This document shows, piece after piece, positions 9,490-18,342 of a stretch of 64,000 nucleotides of DNA. A program made the translations under genes and the position numbers. Source of the DNA: Thermotoga neapolitana DSM 4359. GTDB taxonomy: Bacteria > Thermotogota > Thermotogae > Thermotogales > Thermotogaceae. How positions within the stretch are numbered: position 1 is the stretch's first letter; each line of letters begins with the position of its first letter. Where the stretch lies: assembly GCF_000018945.1 (NCBI RefSeq), contig NC_011978.1:248001-312000 (forward strand), in the 5' to 3' direction. The notes beneath the pieces are model-generated. The model was given only the letters and a program-made list of their open reading frames with translations. It searched no databases and had not been told where the DNA came from.

Positions 9490-10286
9490 TCCATCGCACC
9501 CTCTCGCCTTGTCAACCGCCTGTAAACCGTCAGGAAATCCTCTTTTTCCTCGTCCCGGAAGACTCCTATCTTTATTTTACCCTCCTGAGGTCGCTCGAGG
9601 AAACAGGTGTTGTTCTTGAAGTATTCCATCATCTGGTAGGGTTCTGGCATTCCGTTGTACCTTCCAAAATAAGTGTGACAGTTCGTCAGAACATCGACCA
9701 CGGATATTCCTCTGTGCCTGAGGGCTCTTTTCAGGATCTCGACGAGGTGATCATAATGGTACACGGTGCTTCTTGCAACGAAAGTGGCTCCGGCTGAAAG
9801 GGCCAGTTCAACCACATCGAGTGGTTCCACAAACGATCCCATTGGTGTGGTGGAAGTCTGGTGATAGATGGGAGTGGTGGAGGAGACCTGACCTCCCGTC
9901 ATACCGTAGATCATATTGTTGAAGACGATGACGGTTATATCTATGTTTCTTCTGCAGGCGTGTATGAAATGGTTCCCTCCTATGGATACGATGTCTCCGT
10001 CTCCCCCCATGACCACCACTTCGAAATCCGGTTTTGCCAGTTTCACACCGGTTGCGAATGCAATCGCCCTTCCGTGGAGGGTGTGCAATGTGTTGAAATC
10101 AAGATACCCTGTTGCCCTGGAGGAACAACCGATCCCTGAGACAACGGCAACTTTTTCTTTTGGAAGAGAAAGGGCGTCAACCGCTTCGAGGAAGGCTCTC
10201 AGAACGATCCCGTTTCCACAACCCGGGCACCAGACACTGGGCCATCTGCCGGGTCTCAAATAGGAAATGAGCCTATTGGTTTTCAC
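9486..10286 (-). CDS. 2-oxoacid:ferredoxin oxidoreductase beta subunit (TPP-binding)
   Basis: A 266-residue thiamine-pyrophosphate subunit. It has the WCPGCGNG motif and the TPP/Mg motif [17 protein letters not shown] followed by NN. Family members decarboxylate a 2-oxoacid and pass electrons to ferredoxin. The GTG start overlaps the stop of the deaminase gene (GTGA) behind AAGGTGATCAGAG. It is paired with a gamma-type subunit directly downstream. Length is close to KorB-type subunits. An alpha subunit is missing from the operon. Confidence 0.84.
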
Positions 10287-10792
10287 CTCTGATCACCTTC
10301 GAAGCGAACACTTTCCACACCCGTGAATTTGAAGAAGAAATCCGTCAAAGGGTCCGGGTAGTCTTTCTCATAGACTACACGCTTTATTCCAGCGTTCACT
10401 AGAAGTCTTGCGCAGATGGAACATGGCTTGTGCGTTACGTAGATGGTGGCACCGTTCACAGCAATTCCGAACTTTGCAGCCTGCATGAGGGCGTTTTGCT
10501 CTGCATGGAGTGCGTAGCATATCTCCTGGTGCTCTCCGGAATTTATTCCAAGATCATCACGAATACATCCCACTTCGTTGCAGTGAGGAAATTTTGAGGG
10601 AGGCTGGTTGTATCCTGTGGCGAGGATTCGATGGTCTTTCACAATCACAGCTCCCACTTTTCTGTGGAAGCATGTGGATCTTTCGCTGACCATCCTGGCG
10701 ATTCTCATGAAGTAAGAGTCCCAGGACTCTCTATCGTCGGGCTTTTTCTCCACTTTCAGGTTGTTCAGGTACTCTTCCAGTCTGCCTTTCAC
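10283..10792 (-). CDS. dCMP deaminase-like zinc deaminase
   Basis: A 169-residue cytidine/deoxycytidylate deaminase fold. The zinc site is HAE (H96, E98) with PCSIC (C124, C127). The insertion with CNEVGC (C71, C76) is typical of dCMP deaminases that bind a second zinc. It would produce dUMP for thymidylate synthesis. I chose GTG 10792 because AAGGGTGAG precedes it at good spacing. A longer reading from 10882 would run through a hairpin and a promoter-like box and is rejected. It is the first gene of the chain running down to DUF523. Confidence 0.85.
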
Positions 10793-10822
10793 ACGCTCAC
10801 CCTTATGAGATTGTATCACAGC

Positions 10823-10850
10823 AAAAGCGAGGGCTTTACATGCCCTCGCT
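10823..10850 (-). terminator. hairpin upstream of the dCMP deaminase gene
   Basis: On the minus strand, AGCGAGGGC and GCCCTCGCT form a 9-bp stem with a 7-base loop followed by TTTT. It lies between the glnB terminator and the deaminase start. It may be a second terminator catching read-through from amt-glnB. If transcription starts at the TATACT box (10857-10862) instead, it is an attenuator-like leader hairpin. A TACAAT box at 10810-10815 could give a very short leader. Confidence 0.55.
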
Positions 10851-10896
10851 CTCTGTAGTATAATTTCAGTCCCGGACATCATACGAGGAGGACGGG

Positions 10897-10921
10897 AAAA
10901 AGGGAGGAGGTGTCTCCTCCC
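10897..10921 (-). terminator. rho-independent terminator of amt-glnB
   Basis: On the minus strand an 8-bp perfect stem (GGGAGGAG / CTCCTCCC) with a 4-base loop is followed by TTTTT. It lies 12 bases after the glnB stop. Confidence 0.85.
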
Positions 10922-10932
10922 GAAAAGAAACC

Positions 10933-11274
10933 TTACCCTATGGCCTCCCGTCCTCTCTCCCCCGTTCTGATTCTGATACAGTCCAGAAGGTCCAGAACGA
11001 AAATCTTCCCGTCTCCTATGTTTCCCGTTCTTGCTCCCTTTTGAATCGCCTCAATGGTTGGTTCAACAAAACCTTCGTTGACCGCTATGAGAAGCATCAC
11101 TTTCTTGAGAAGGTTCACTTCTTCTATTTCACCTCTGTATGTCTCTGTGTAGCCCTTTTGCTGCCCGCATCCAAGAACGTTCATCACGGTCATCTTGTAG
11201 ACCTGAGCGTCGAAGAGTGCCTTTTTCACATCCGGTAACTTGTGGGGCTGTATAACGGCTATGATCAGTTTCAT
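10933..11274 (-). CDS. glnB: PII nitrogen-regulatory protein
   Basis: A 113-residue PII signalling protein that senses 2-oxoglutarate and adenylates and would gate the adjacent ammonium transporter. The C-terminal signature ([20 protein letters not shown]) and Q39/K58-type residues are present. In the T-loop position 51, the uridylylated Tyr of enteric PII, is Glu (YRGEIEEVN), so uridylylation at this site is impossible. The ATG at 11274 follows GGAGGTGGTAGC; the longer reading is rejected. It lies 13 bases after amt in the same operon. Confidence 0.92.
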
Positions 11275-11287
11275 GCTACCACCTCCT

Positions 11288-12595
11288 TTATCTTGTGGTG
11301 AAGATTTCAAAGTCAGCGTACCCTTCCATACCGTGTTCGTCTATGTCCAGCCCCTTCAGTTCTGTGTCTCTGTCCACCCTCAAACCGATGGTCTTCTTGA
11401 TGAACCAGAACACAAGGAAACTGGTCGCAACAGTCCAGGCGAACACACTGATAACTCCCAGAAACTGCACTCCAAGTTGGTGTACTCCTCCTCCGAAGAA
11501 GAGACCTTGCACATCCCCCATCCCACTTGCGAGAGCATACTTACTCTCCGCAAAAAGCCCCACGGCGAGCGTTCCCCATGCACCGTTGACACCGTGAACG
11601 GATATGGCACCAACGGGATCGTCGATCTTCAAAACCTTGTCGAAGAATTCAACGGCGAAGACAACTATCACACCTCCGATCGCTCCTATGATCAGTGAAC
11701 TCACGGGAGACACCACAGCACACGGTGCGGTGATGGCGACAAGACCAGCCAGAGCACCGTTCATCGTCATACTCGCATCTGGCTTTCCATATCTCATCCA
11801 CACGGTGATCATCGCGGCGAGCGCACCGGCAGCAGCAGCGAGGTTGGTGTTCAGTATGATCATCCCTATTGCACCGTTCGTTCCGGCAAGGGTACTTCCT
11901 CCATTGAACCCGAACCATCCAAACCAGAGGATGAAGGTTCCGAGTGCCGCAAGGGGAATGTTGTGACCAGGAATGGGCCTGGGATTTCCCTGACTGTCGT
12001 ATTTTCCAAACCTGGGGCCAAGAAGGGCAGCACCTATCATGGCAGCCCAGCCACCGACAGAGTGAACAACGGTAGAACCCGCAAAATCGATGAAGCCTCT
12101 CTGGGCAAGCCATCCACCACCCCATATCCACCTTCCAACGACCGAGTAGATGATACCCGTTATGAAACCCGTGTAGGCAAGGTATGCGGAAAATTTGGTG
12201 CGCTCCGCCATCGCTCCTGACACGATCGTTGCTGCCGTTCCAGCGAAGGCCATCTGAAACATCCACATGGCAAATTCCCACAAACCCTCTTTCATGGAAG
12301 GGTCAAAGGTGAGAGGATGTGTGCCGAACATGATCCAGTAACCAAACAAAAAGTAAACCACAGACCCGATCGAAAAATCCATGAGGTTCTTCATGACGAT
12401 GTTCACCGTGTTCTTTGCACGAGTGAAACCTGACTCTACCATGGCGAAACCTGCCTGCATGAAAAAGACCAGTGCTGCAGAGACAAGAAGCCAGACCATG
12501 TCCAGAGACCAACCAACATCCACACTGCCGTCCTGAGCGAAACCAAGGGAGAGCAGAACAAAGGCGAGCATCAAAAAGAGAAACTTCCTCCGCAT
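11288..12595 (-). CDS. amt: ammonium transporter
   Basis: A 435-residue Amt/MEP/Rh channel with about 11 transmembrane helices, preceded by a cleavable-looking signal ([12 protein letters not shown]). Family motifs include the conserved Asp region in [23 protein letters not shown] and [15 protein letters not shown] with the pore His. It would import ammonium under nitrogen limitation and be blocked by the PII protein encoded next. The ATG at 12595 follows GGAGGAGGTGTTCTC. A leader of about 165 nt with a strong hairpin and U-run precedes it. Confidence 0.93.
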
Positions 12596-12666
12596 GAGAA
12601 CACCTCCTCCTAATAGTGTTGATTTATATATCAATGTGAATATAAATAACTTCTTTTTAGAAACGC

Positions 12667-12731
12667 AAAAAACAAATACCCTATGAGGTCCGCCTTCTGA
12701 GGGCACGAACCCCATATATGGTTGGATATTT
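12667..12731 (-). promoter_or_regulatory. structured, attenuator-like leader of amt-glnB
   Basis: On the minus strand this leader can fold into a long nested hairpin. P1 is AAATATCC (12724-12731) with GGGTATTT (12674-12681). P2 is TATGGGG (12710-12716) with CCTCATA (12682-12688). P3 is GCC (12702-12704) with GGC (12692-12694), closing a 7-base loop CTCAGAA. P1 and P2 3' strands are contiguous, leaving a 7-base one-sided bulge AACCATA. Six U residues follow at 12667-12672. The shape is that of an intrinsic terminator between the promoter and amt. I do not recognise a known riboswitch class. Confidence 0.55.
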
Positions 12732-12767
12732 TGTTGTGGATTTCCGGGAAAAATTCTCTGGATGTCT

Positions 12768-12796
12768 TTTATATGCTTTAATAGTATCAGCCTCAA
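12768..12796 (-). promoter_or_regulatory. amt-glnB promoter
   Basis: Minus strand TTGAGG (12791-12796), a 17-bp spacer and TATAAA (12768-12773). Transcription would start near 12761, upstream of the structured leader. A second A+T-rich box (TATAAA near 12620-12630) could be an additional proximal promoter. Confidence 0.6.
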
Positions 12797-12847
12797 AAGG
12801 TGCCGTCAATTATGAGAATGTTTCAGTTTGGGTGGGCAGAGTGTTAA

Positions 12848-14616
<1,769 letters not shown>

Positions 14617-14636
<20 letters not shown>

Positions 14637-15288
14637 AACCAATTCCCCTCACAGTGTGGATTATCTTCTTTTTGAAGCCCCTGTCGATCTTTTTTCTCAG
14701 GTTCTTGATGTGACTTCTGAGCGTATCGGAAAAGACGGTGTCATCAAAACTCCAGAGGTGCTCCTGCAGTTCCTCCTTTGTAACCACCCTGTTTTTGTTC
14801 ATCATGAGGTACTCCAGTATCTGGTACTCTTTTTTCGTAAGATCGATCTCTTTTCCTCCTCTGAAGACCTTCCTGGTAGCCGTATCCAGAATTAGGTCTC
14901 CACAGACCAGTTTGACATTTTTGTTCTCTGCCTTCCTTCTGATCAAAGCCTTCACCCGGGCAATGAGTTCTCTGAGATCGAAGGGCTTTGGAAGATAATC
15001 GTCGGCTCCCATGTTGAGGCCTTTCACCCGGTACTCCACATCCGAAAGGGCTGTGAGCATCAGAACGGGAGTGTTTATACCCTTTTCCCTCATAGCCTTC
15101 AGGATCTCCCAGCCATCGTGAACGGGAAGCAACACATCCAGAATCACCACATCGAAGTCTTCGTTTAGAGCCATGTACATTCCCTCTTCACCGTCGTAGC
15201 AGACATCAACGGTGAACATCTCTTTTTTCAGAGCCTCGGCGATCAGATCTGCAAGATCCTTTTCGTCTTCCACAAGGAGAACTCTCAT
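14617..15288 (-). CDS. OmpR/PhoB-family response regulator
   Basis: A 223-residue response regulator partnered with the downstream kinase. The receiver domain has VEDE, phospho-acceptor D51 (VVILDVLLP), T79 and K101 (LPKPFD). The C-terminal winged helix (about 125-223) has the OmpR-type LTKKEYQILEYLM and RSHIKNLRKKID, with the final VRGIGYVV. The ATG at 15288 follows GGGGTGATAGA; a longer reading is rejected. The targets are unknown. Confidence 0.93.
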
Positions 15289-15352
15289 TCTATCACCCCG
15301 ATATGAAGATTTTATCAATTTGAACGTGAAAAAGTCGTGGAAATTCCCTCCC

Positions 15353-15637: not shown

Positions 15638-15692
15638 TGTTATACACAAGATTTCATATTCATGCCTTTCCGTTCGCTAGGAGGTGAATGCC

Positions 15693-16826
15693 TTGCCCTA
15701 TGACCTCCCTCGTTTGATACCCGACAGGGATTTTAAAGTTCCATCCGCGTGTGGTGTTTCTGGAATAATGAACACATCCGGAAAGAGATTCAGCGGAAGC
15801 ACAATTGTTGAAACAATGGCTTTGATGCGCGAAAGGGGAAACGGCCTCGGAGCAGGTTACGCCGCCTACGGCATATACCCAGAACTCAAAGATTTTTACT
15901 GCTTTCACATGCTCTACGACAGTGAACTGGACAAGAAAAATGCAGAAGAGTACATAAAATCCCACTACGAGATCATCGAAAGCGAACCCATCCCCACCAG
16001 AAAGAATCCCCATATCAAGGAAGTCCACATCCTCTGGCGATACTTCCTGAAACCAAAGAGCATACCAGAGGGTTTCACCGAAGAAGACTTTGTCGTCGAT
16101 ACGGTGATGTTCATAAACGAGAAGATCAAGGGTGCCTTTGTTATGTCCAGTGGAAAGAACATGGGAGTCTTTAAAGGTGTGGGCTTCCCTGAGGACATCG
16201 CCGACTTTTACAGAATCGATGAGTACAAGGGCTACATCTGGACTGCCCACAACAGGTTCCCCACGAACACCGTTGGATGGTGGGGTGGAGCGCATCCCTT
16301 CGGAATCCTCGACTGGACGGTTGTGCACAACGGGGAGATCTCGTCCTACGGTATAAACAGAAGATTTCTGGAAGCGTACGGTTACAAATGTACCCTCATG
16401 ACGGACACCGAAGTTGTGGCGTATCTTGTGGACCTGTTCATGAGAAGGTTCGGATACAGTCCCAAAATCACTGCAAAAATACTCGCTGCTCCTCTGTGGA
16501 AAGACATAGACCTCATGCCAGAAGAAGAGAGAAAACTCTACACTGCCCTGAGGATGAACTACGGTGGAGCCCTTCTCAACGGCCCCTTTGCCATCATTGT
16601 TGCAAACAGCAACATGATGATGGGGCTGAACGACAGGATAAAACTCAGACCCCTCGTGGCTGCCACGAAAGATGATTTCCTCTACATTGCCTCCGAAGAA
16701 TCCGCCATAAGGGTTGTTTGCCCCGAACCAGATGAGGTGTGGGCTCCCAAGGCGGGTGAACCCGTTGTGGGAGTCCTGAAATCCACCGAAAAAGTCCGGG
16801 TGGCATTGGAGGGAGAGAATGGCTAA
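15693..16826 (+). CDS. glutamate synthase, glutamine amidotransferase domain protein
   Basis: A 377-residue class II (Ntn-type) glutamine amidotransferase, the stand-alone counterpart of the N-terminal domain of large glutamate synthase subunits. The nucleophile is the Cys of ACGVSGIMN. It is preceded by about 19 residues that would need removal to expose it. [18 protein letters not shown] and [11 protein letters not shown] are family motifs. I chose TTG 15693 because GGAGGTGA lies five bases before it; a GTG at 15684 sits within the ribosome site. It is the first gene of a five-gene operon. Confidence 0.88.
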
Positions 16827-18342
16827 GAGAAAAGTCCCAGCGGAATTTGTTGTGGAACGCGATGATTACAAGTGCATAAGATGCCTTGCCTGTGTCAGAG
16901 TGTGCTCCTATGGGGCAAACTACTACGATGAGAACGCCAACAGGGTCTACACGGAAAATTACAAGTGTGTTGGATGTCACTTCTGTGAAGCCATATGCCC
17001 GACAGAGGCCATAACGGTTCGAAGGAACAATTTCGACATCAGGCCTCTTGCGCACTGGACGCCAGAACACCTGATCGGGATCATGAAACAGGCAGACACC
17101 GGCGGGGTTCTGCTCACCAGTATGGGAAACGACAGACCGTACTTCAGTTACTTCGATAGGATCGTTCTAAACGCAAGTCAGGTGACGAATCCATCGATAG
17201 ATCCTCTCAGAGAGCCAATGGAGATCAGAACCTACATAGGAAGAAAAGAGGCAAAACTGGAGATAGAAGAAGACGGAGAAGGAAACGTGGCCCTCAAAAC
17301 AGAGATAGCTCCCCAGTTGAAACTGGAAGTTCCCGTCATGTTCACCGCTATGTCCTACGGTTCGATCAGTTTGAACGCCCTTCTGTCTCTGGCGAGGGCA
17401 GCAAGAACGATTGGAACCTTCTTCAACACAGGTGAAGGTGGCCTTCCGAAGGAACTCAGAGAGTTCAAAGACAACATGATAGTTCAGGTTGCCTCCGGTC
17501 GTTTCGGTGTGAGTGCAGATTATCTGAACGCAGGTTCAGCCGTCGAGATAAAAATAGGACAGGGTGCAAAACCGGGAATCGGAGGACACCTTCCCGGTGA
17601 GAAGGTCACAGAACCCATCTCGGAGACCAGAATGATACCCGTTGGGACCGATGCCTTATCTCCTGCCCCACACCACGATATCTACTCCATAGAAGACCTC
17701 AGACAGCTCATCTATGCCATAAAAGAAGCCACAAGGTACGAAAAACCTGTCGGCGTCAAGATCGCGGCGGTGCACAACGTGGCCCCCATAGCGGCCGGTA
17801 TGGTCAGGGCGGGAGCAGACTACATCGTGATAGACGGTATCAGGGGAGGAACGGGTGCCGCCCCCAAGGTGACGAGGGATCATGTGGGAATCCCCATAGA
17901 GTTTGCCATCGCCGTGGTCGATCAGAGACTCAGAGAAGAGGGAATAAGACACATGGCATCGATCGTTGTGGCAGGAGGTATCAGAAACAGTGCGGATGTT
18001 ATCAAAGCAATCGCGCTTGGAGCGGATGCAGTTTACATAGGAACAGCGGCACTGGTTGCCCTCGGCTGTCATCTCTGCCAGACGTGTTACCTTGGAAAGT
18101 GTAACTGGGGTATAGCCACTCAGGATCCGAAACTCACAAAAAGGCTCAACCCGGAGATAGGAGCAAGGAGGGCGGCAAACCTTCTGAGGGCCTGGGCACA
18201 CGAAATAAAAGAAATCCTGGGTGGAATGGGAATCAACGCCATAGAATCCCTCAGGGGCAACAGAGAGGCACTCAGGGGAGTTGGACTGCACGAGTACGAA
18301 CTGAAACTCCTTGGAATCAAACCCGCGGGAGAGGCGTGGTGA
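16819..18342 (+). CDS. glutamate synthase, FMN/Fe-S catalytic domain protein
   Basis: A 507-residue protein with an N-terminal two-[4Fe-4S] ferredoxin domain ([11 protein letters not shown] and [11 protein letters not shown]). A FMN-binding glutamate synthase barrel follows, with the Cys motif for the 3Fe-4S-type cluster [12 protein letters not shown]. It converts 2-oxoglutarate and channelled ammonia to glutamate using electrons delivered by its Fe-S partners. The architecture is the archaeal-type, split glutamate synthase. The ATG lies within GGAGGGAGAGA context and overlaps the previous gene by 8 bases. Confidence 0.92.

Follow-up and report, generated by a model that had tools for sequence, protein, structure and literature searches.

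In plain terminators a conserved loop is unusual and is not needed for termination. Loop conservation was the first clue to the HMP-PP (thiS) riboswitch, whose discoverers found that this sign and an alternative, mutually exclusive fold betrayed an aptamer embedded in a terminator (PMC6478431), and similar remarks have been made for another candidate motif (PMC8632094). The guanidine-IV riboswitch has a terminator stem whose loop contains conserved nucleotides, and it exerts ON control by termination (PMC7736828). Among leaders of nitrogen genes, the glnA motif, which together with the Downstream-peptide motif makes up the glutamine motifs (RF01739, RF01704), can precede ammonium transporter and P-II genes (PMC2864571), and the gltD motif, a glutamine riboswitch candidate, lies in the leader of a nitrogen-assimilation gene (PMC8632094). 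In ANTAR-controlled leaders, a small hairpin competes with the terminator (PMC3369931).

The present analysis concerns the leader of amt-glnB in a 64,000-nucleotide stretch of the 1.88 Mb genome of Thermotoga neapolitana DSM 4359 (NC_011978.1, positions 248,001 to 312,000; hereafter the window). By analogy, this leader appears to show both signs of the HMP-PP type, the alternative fold only weakly. The two have in common a terminator-like stem with an unusually conserved loop and a single metabolic theme downstream, and an exclusive fold that uses the 5′ arm is predicted for the amt leader as well; however, the HMP-PP riboswitch precedes thiamin genes, has a pseudoknot in its alternative fold and occurs in two phyla, whereas the amt element is found in one lineage only and has no Rfam match. 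Guanidine-IV differs in having a pseudoknot, in its spread over seven phyla and in standing most often before sugE genes, the glutamine motifs are cyanobacterial with other conserved sequence, and the gltD motif, found among sequenced organisms in Selenomonadales and Veillonellales only, acts at the ribosome-binding site before gltD. Rfam covariance models, guanidine-IV and the glutamine motifs included, gave no match in the amt leader either at the gathering cut-off or at E<=10, in agreement with an earlier sequence-only reading that had recognized no known riboswitch. ANTAR leaders need an ANTAR protein and two hairpins whose six-base loops carry A1 and G4 (PMC3369931), whereas the amt leader has one hairpin only, its loop starts with U and the protein is absent from the genus. 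Judged from its sequence, the element is a genus-restricted candidate attenuator outside the known classes, an unusual conserved combination of ordinary parts rather than something categorically new; in the literature searched, no leader control of amt-glnB in Thermotogales was found described.

The amt-glnB locus and its promoter

The features referred to below, all on the minus strand of the window, are as follows.

10933..11274, minus: glnB, nitrogen regulatory protein P-II (PF00543, E 1.6e-28)
11291..12595, minus: amt, ammonium transporter (PF00909, E 1.8e-131), with its ATG at 12595
12603..12613, minus: amt ribosome-binding site AGGAGGAGGTG, read from the sequence; conserved
12667..12672, minus: run of six U after the hairpin
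12671..12735, minus: P1, A/U-rich outer stem of the minimum free energy fold at 37 °C (12735-12724 with 12681-12671)
12682..12716, minus: P2 hairpin of 10 conserved pairs (12716-12707 with 12691-12682), the core of the terminator-like structure
12700..12713, minus: near-invariant GGGGUUYGURCCCU, predicted to form a competing 5-bp mini-hairpin (12713-12709 with 12704-12700)
12768..12796, minus: TTGAGG-17-TATAAA, a weaker promoter with a non-conserved -35 element
12781..12809, minus: sigma-70-type promoter TTGACG-17-TGa-TACTAT, conserved, with a predicted transcription start near 12774
12805..12824, minus: GAAACATTCTCATAATTGAC, an invariant block upstream that ends in the -35 element; identical in 7/7 genus genomes but for R at one position

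The Pfam matches bear out the earlier naming of the operon as amt-glnB and also identify tdk, which lies upstream of the leader and is divergent from amt. Glutamate synthase pieces (a glutamine amidotransferase-like part and an FMN domain with 4Fe-4S) were seen on the plus strand at 15684-18342, about 3 kb from amt-glnB and beside a two-component system at 13422-15318, and the surroundings have the look of a nitrogen-assimilation neighbourhood.

The sequence-only reading had assigned the leader to the promoter TTGAGG-17-TATAAA. That site exists, and a CATAyAAAA string in its region is itself conserved; however, its score is 6.5 compared with 10.8 for the TTGACG/TACTAT site. The latter was the top-scoring site in each of seven Thermotoga species, with the consensus TTGAC(G/A/T)-17-TGn-TAnnAT, and the minus-strand site returned by a consensus promoter scan was the same one. 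Since this conserved promoter is the better-scoring of the two, the leader would be approximately 179 nt long, and an attenuated RNA approximately 105 nt. The 20-base block GAAACATTCTCRTAATTGAC, which covers most of the -35 element, is essentially unique in each genome apart from matches with three mismatches. It is 95% identical to that of the most diverged intact species, compared with 12% for the sequence just upstream, and is kept even in the species with an amt pseudogene; it may be a site for an activator, a UP site, or a sequence that the divergent tdk promoter also uses.

The order of the parts is that of an attenuator, with the promoter upstream, then the hairpin and its U run, and then a good ribosome-binding site and the amt start codon. 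With tdk divergent and the conserved promoter preceding the hairpin in each of the seven species, the hairpin could stop no transcript on this strand other than that of amt itself. Alternatively, the approximately 105 nt RNA could be a separate small RNA, with amt transcribed from its own promoter between 12667 and the ribosome-binding site. The many 5′ untranslated regions of 26-32 nt in T. maritima (PMC3636130) and a weak promoter-like sequence, TTGCGT-18-TATATT (score 7.6), would fit such an arrangement, but the species share no promoter at a fixed position downstream of the hairpin, and we consider the arrangement the least probable of all the explanations weighed here.

The hairpin and its conservation within Thermotoga

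The nested hairpin described in the sequence-only reading does exist on the minus strand (12735-12667, before the amt ribosome-binding site). The 72-nt hairpin sequence folded with a z score of -3.28, with 2/200 dinucleotide shuffles as good, and the leader with a z score of -3.0, with 0/200 as good, whereas the opposite strand was not significant against shuffles (z -0.46). The fold also beat shuffles in all five distinct intact sequences of the genus (z -2.5 to -3.3). A one-sided bulge of 7 nt (AACCAUA, 12723-12717) and six U residues were both present as had been noted, the U run also being six long in four further species, five long in the most diverged of the intact ones and four long in the amt-pseudogene genome. 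P2, previously given as 7 bp, in fact comprises 10-12 bp. The outer stem P1 occurs as described but does not hold as a conserved element, as its pairing was no better than that of shuffled A-/U-rich flanks in any species, and in the predicted fold it melts at 80 °C. Likewise, P3 (GCC/GGC) was not supported as a conserved element, since two of the five distinct intact sequences are unable to form it. Without P1, the six-U run sits 9 nt past P2 in the window behind a U-rich, imperfect spacer, and a simple terminator scan of the window did not list the hairpin.

A DNA search with the whole leader found relatives in the genus Thermotoga only. There are six informative sequences, five distinct intact ones and one decayed copy. 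Among the five, all 50 cells of P2 were paired, and with the decayed copy included 57/58 cells were paired in six species. Two pairs had changed on both sides (U-A/C-G and G-C/A-U) and no pair was broken among the intact copies, so the compensatory changes asked of the stem by the earlier reading were found, indicating that P2 is a conserved RNA structure. Its covariation score was reached by 6/500 column shuffles, and the probability that all five varied pairs would still pair after substitutions at random is 0.002-0.009. Most of the variation is C-to-U or A-to-G and yields G-U pairs, pointing to RNA and away from a DNA operator. The operator explanation, an inverted repeat downstream of the promoter bound by a DNA-binding repressor, draws on the near-palindromic form of P2 in some species and on weak opposite-strand matches of the covariance model described below. 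However, in four of the five varied pairs the difference is a G-U wobble, which keeps RNA pairing but breaks DNA symmetry, and the loop is conserved on one side only, making an operator very unlikely.

A covariance model of P2 (R1), built from five training sequences, detected the element in 6/7 genus genomes at E<=3e-13 and in the seventh at 0.002, E-values that are not independent because five of the six genomes supplied the training set and the sixth is identical to one of these in this stretch. The window's genome yielded no second copy by pattern, and the other match of R1 there was at chance level (16 bits, E 0.38); the element occurs as one copy per genome. In the seventh species, amt-glnB is a pseudogene (G010, contig C64, around 10000-10900) that carries frameshifts and a stop at codon 21, and in which a deletion has fused amt to glnB. 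The leader of this species folds no better than shuffles (z +0.78) and has lost part of the U run, and from its sequence appears to have decayed along with amt-glnB.

The conserved loop, a competing mini-hairpin and the control of amt-glnB

Conservation in the hairpin falls on the 5′ arm of P2 together with the loop, ATGGGGTTYGTRCCCTY, rather than on the stem itself. This segment is 81% identical to that of the most diverged intact species, compared with 25% for the sequence from the U tract to the ribosome-binding site, and its conservation appears to go beyond the needs of a plain terminator. In each of the five distinct intact sequences, GGGGU-UYGU-RCCCU within this segment can form a mini-hairpin, with -6.2 to -6.5 kcal/mol at 37 °C and -0.9 to -1.5 kcal/mol at 80 °C, at which temperature it is the predicted fold in one species. 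The P2 region gives -1.5 to -3.5 kcal/mol at 80 °C, with the P2 core put at about -2 to -3.5 kcal/mol; both folds are thermodynamically feasible, and by these calculations they are close in stability at this temperature. As the mini-hairpin and P2 use the same GGGGU, each excludes the other, and in simulated folds of the growing transcript the mini-hairpin formed first and was then replaced by P2. One intact copy has a pair-preserving U-G to U-A change in the mini-hairpin and the decayed copy has one mismatch; in this nearly invariant segment there are no two-sided changes. Shuffles folded as well in 2-5% of cases for the segment, and in 7.5% when loops were shuffled behind a fixed arm, and we put the mini-hairpin forward as a proposal for an alternative fold. 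Both the conserved 5′ arm with its loop and the competing mini-hairpin are new here, being absent from the sequence-only account. Base pairing between the Shine–Dalgarno sequence and either the loop or the 5′ leader was also considered by eye and rejected, as it amounts to 4-5 pairs that are not conserved.

In our best reading of these predictions, amt-glnB would be controlled by premature termination. More specifically, we tentatively favour, at slightly less than an even chance, a cis-acting transcription attenuator in the approximately 179-nt leader that switches ON through exchange of the mini-hairpin and P2. The polymerase would start near 12774, and GGGGUUYGURCCCU would emerge first and fold into the small hairpin. 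With GRACYYCAU and the U-rich tract then transcribed, GGGGUUY would change its partner to form the terminator-like P2, halting transcription after approximately 105 nt. Under nitrogen shortage, a small molecule or an RNA-binding protein that recognizes the UYGU loop and its stem may act as the signal, holding the mini-hairpin and allowing read-through into amt-glnB. That the polymerase stops at the hairpin and that the cell switches between the two folds is our inference, as is what the signal would be and in which direction it would act. For an ammonium transporter, the simplest arrangement would be one turned ON when nitrogen is short; an OFF switch, with P2 stabilized under nitrogen plenty, is possible.

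A plainer explanation is that the hairpin is a fixed partial terminator, leaky and unregulated, that merely lowers amt expression. It is in keeping with the weakness of P2 at 80 °C, where two canonical terminator-like hairpins elsewhere in the window reach -5.7 and -7.3 kcal/mol, and with the absence of evidence for a ligand, and a temperature-dependent variant would accord with two folds that are close in energy near the growth temperature. The loop and 5′ arm are, however, conserved more than a plain terminator needs, and we regard a fixed terminator as improbable.

The block could also be conserved as coding sequence. Read as ATG GGG TTY GTR CCC (12715-12701, minus strand), it would encode the start of a leader peptide, MGFVPS, whose translation would control the terminator; the ATG opens the conserved block in 7/7 genus genomes and the variable sites fall mostly at third codon positions. 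However, no Shine–Dalgarno sequence precedes this ATG, although ribosome-binding sites are unusually conserved in T. maritima (PMC3636130), single-base differences in loop length leave the frame unconserved past codon 6, and in the window the frame runs into amt, in frame. Control by such a peptide is therefore highly improbable.

Somewhat unlikely, and still the most probable of the rivals considered, is an attenuator controlled by protein, in which an RNA-binding regulator (for example a P-II partner) would bind the conserved loop and the P2 arm and so stabilize or block the terminator, the mini-hairpin being incidental. A short stem with a conserved single-stranded loop is like many protein-bound leaders, and the narrow phylogenetic range fits a lineage-specific protein. 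Against this, an ANTAR protein was found in 0/7 genus genomes by a search that detects ANTAR in three other genomes, a CAT-type antiterminator (CAT_RBD; LicT/SacY) was found in 0/7 with four positive controls, and the explanation names no candidate protein.

Quite unlikely, and the boldest form of the mini-hairpin/P2 attenuator, is that the 14-nt GGGGUUYGURCCCU is itself a new, very small riboswitch embedded in a terminator, sensing a metabolite of nitrogen status (for example glutamine, 2-oxoglutarate or an ammonium-related one) near 80 °C. T. maritima has been reported to have short leaders and little room for control by transcription factors (PMC3636130). If the attenuator is real, the long conserved leader and its two mutually exclusive hairpins would constitute a rare case of an RNA switch in a hyperthermophile; it would also provide a minimal sensor embedded in a terminator and a concrete way into nitrogen sensing in the Thermotoga lineage.

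Leaders outside the genus

Elsewhere in Thermotogota, R1 gave weak matches only (E 6e-4 and above), with no convincing match in another genus and no second gene context for the element; the six matches inspected all lay in or across unrelated open reading frames. A pattern search of the genome contigs with GGGTTYGTGCCCT-N4..12-GRACYYC returned 63 stretches compared with approximately 67 expected by chance (a hand estimate), none of which carries amt or glnB. The amt leaders of other Thermotogota families do not carry the element. In a sister genus, reading by eye revealed a hairpin in syntenic position, AGGGUUCCGCCCGGAGAGGGAGGAACCU, which is preceded by a similar promoter, is followed by a T7 run and shares the order GGGUU..CCC..GAACC with the Thermotoga element. 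R1 does not find this hairpin and its fold is no better than shuffles, and on sequence likeness it is only a possible homologue.

In another Thermotogota family, a well-formed ribosome-binding site and a short open reading frame (MFPRKINVSHKNMYS or MFPRRINVSHENIYS) were seen approximately 100 nt before amt, and GGAGGTGA-like strings were also present upstream of amt in other families. The sequences of these other leaders suggest a different type of control, through a leader peptide.
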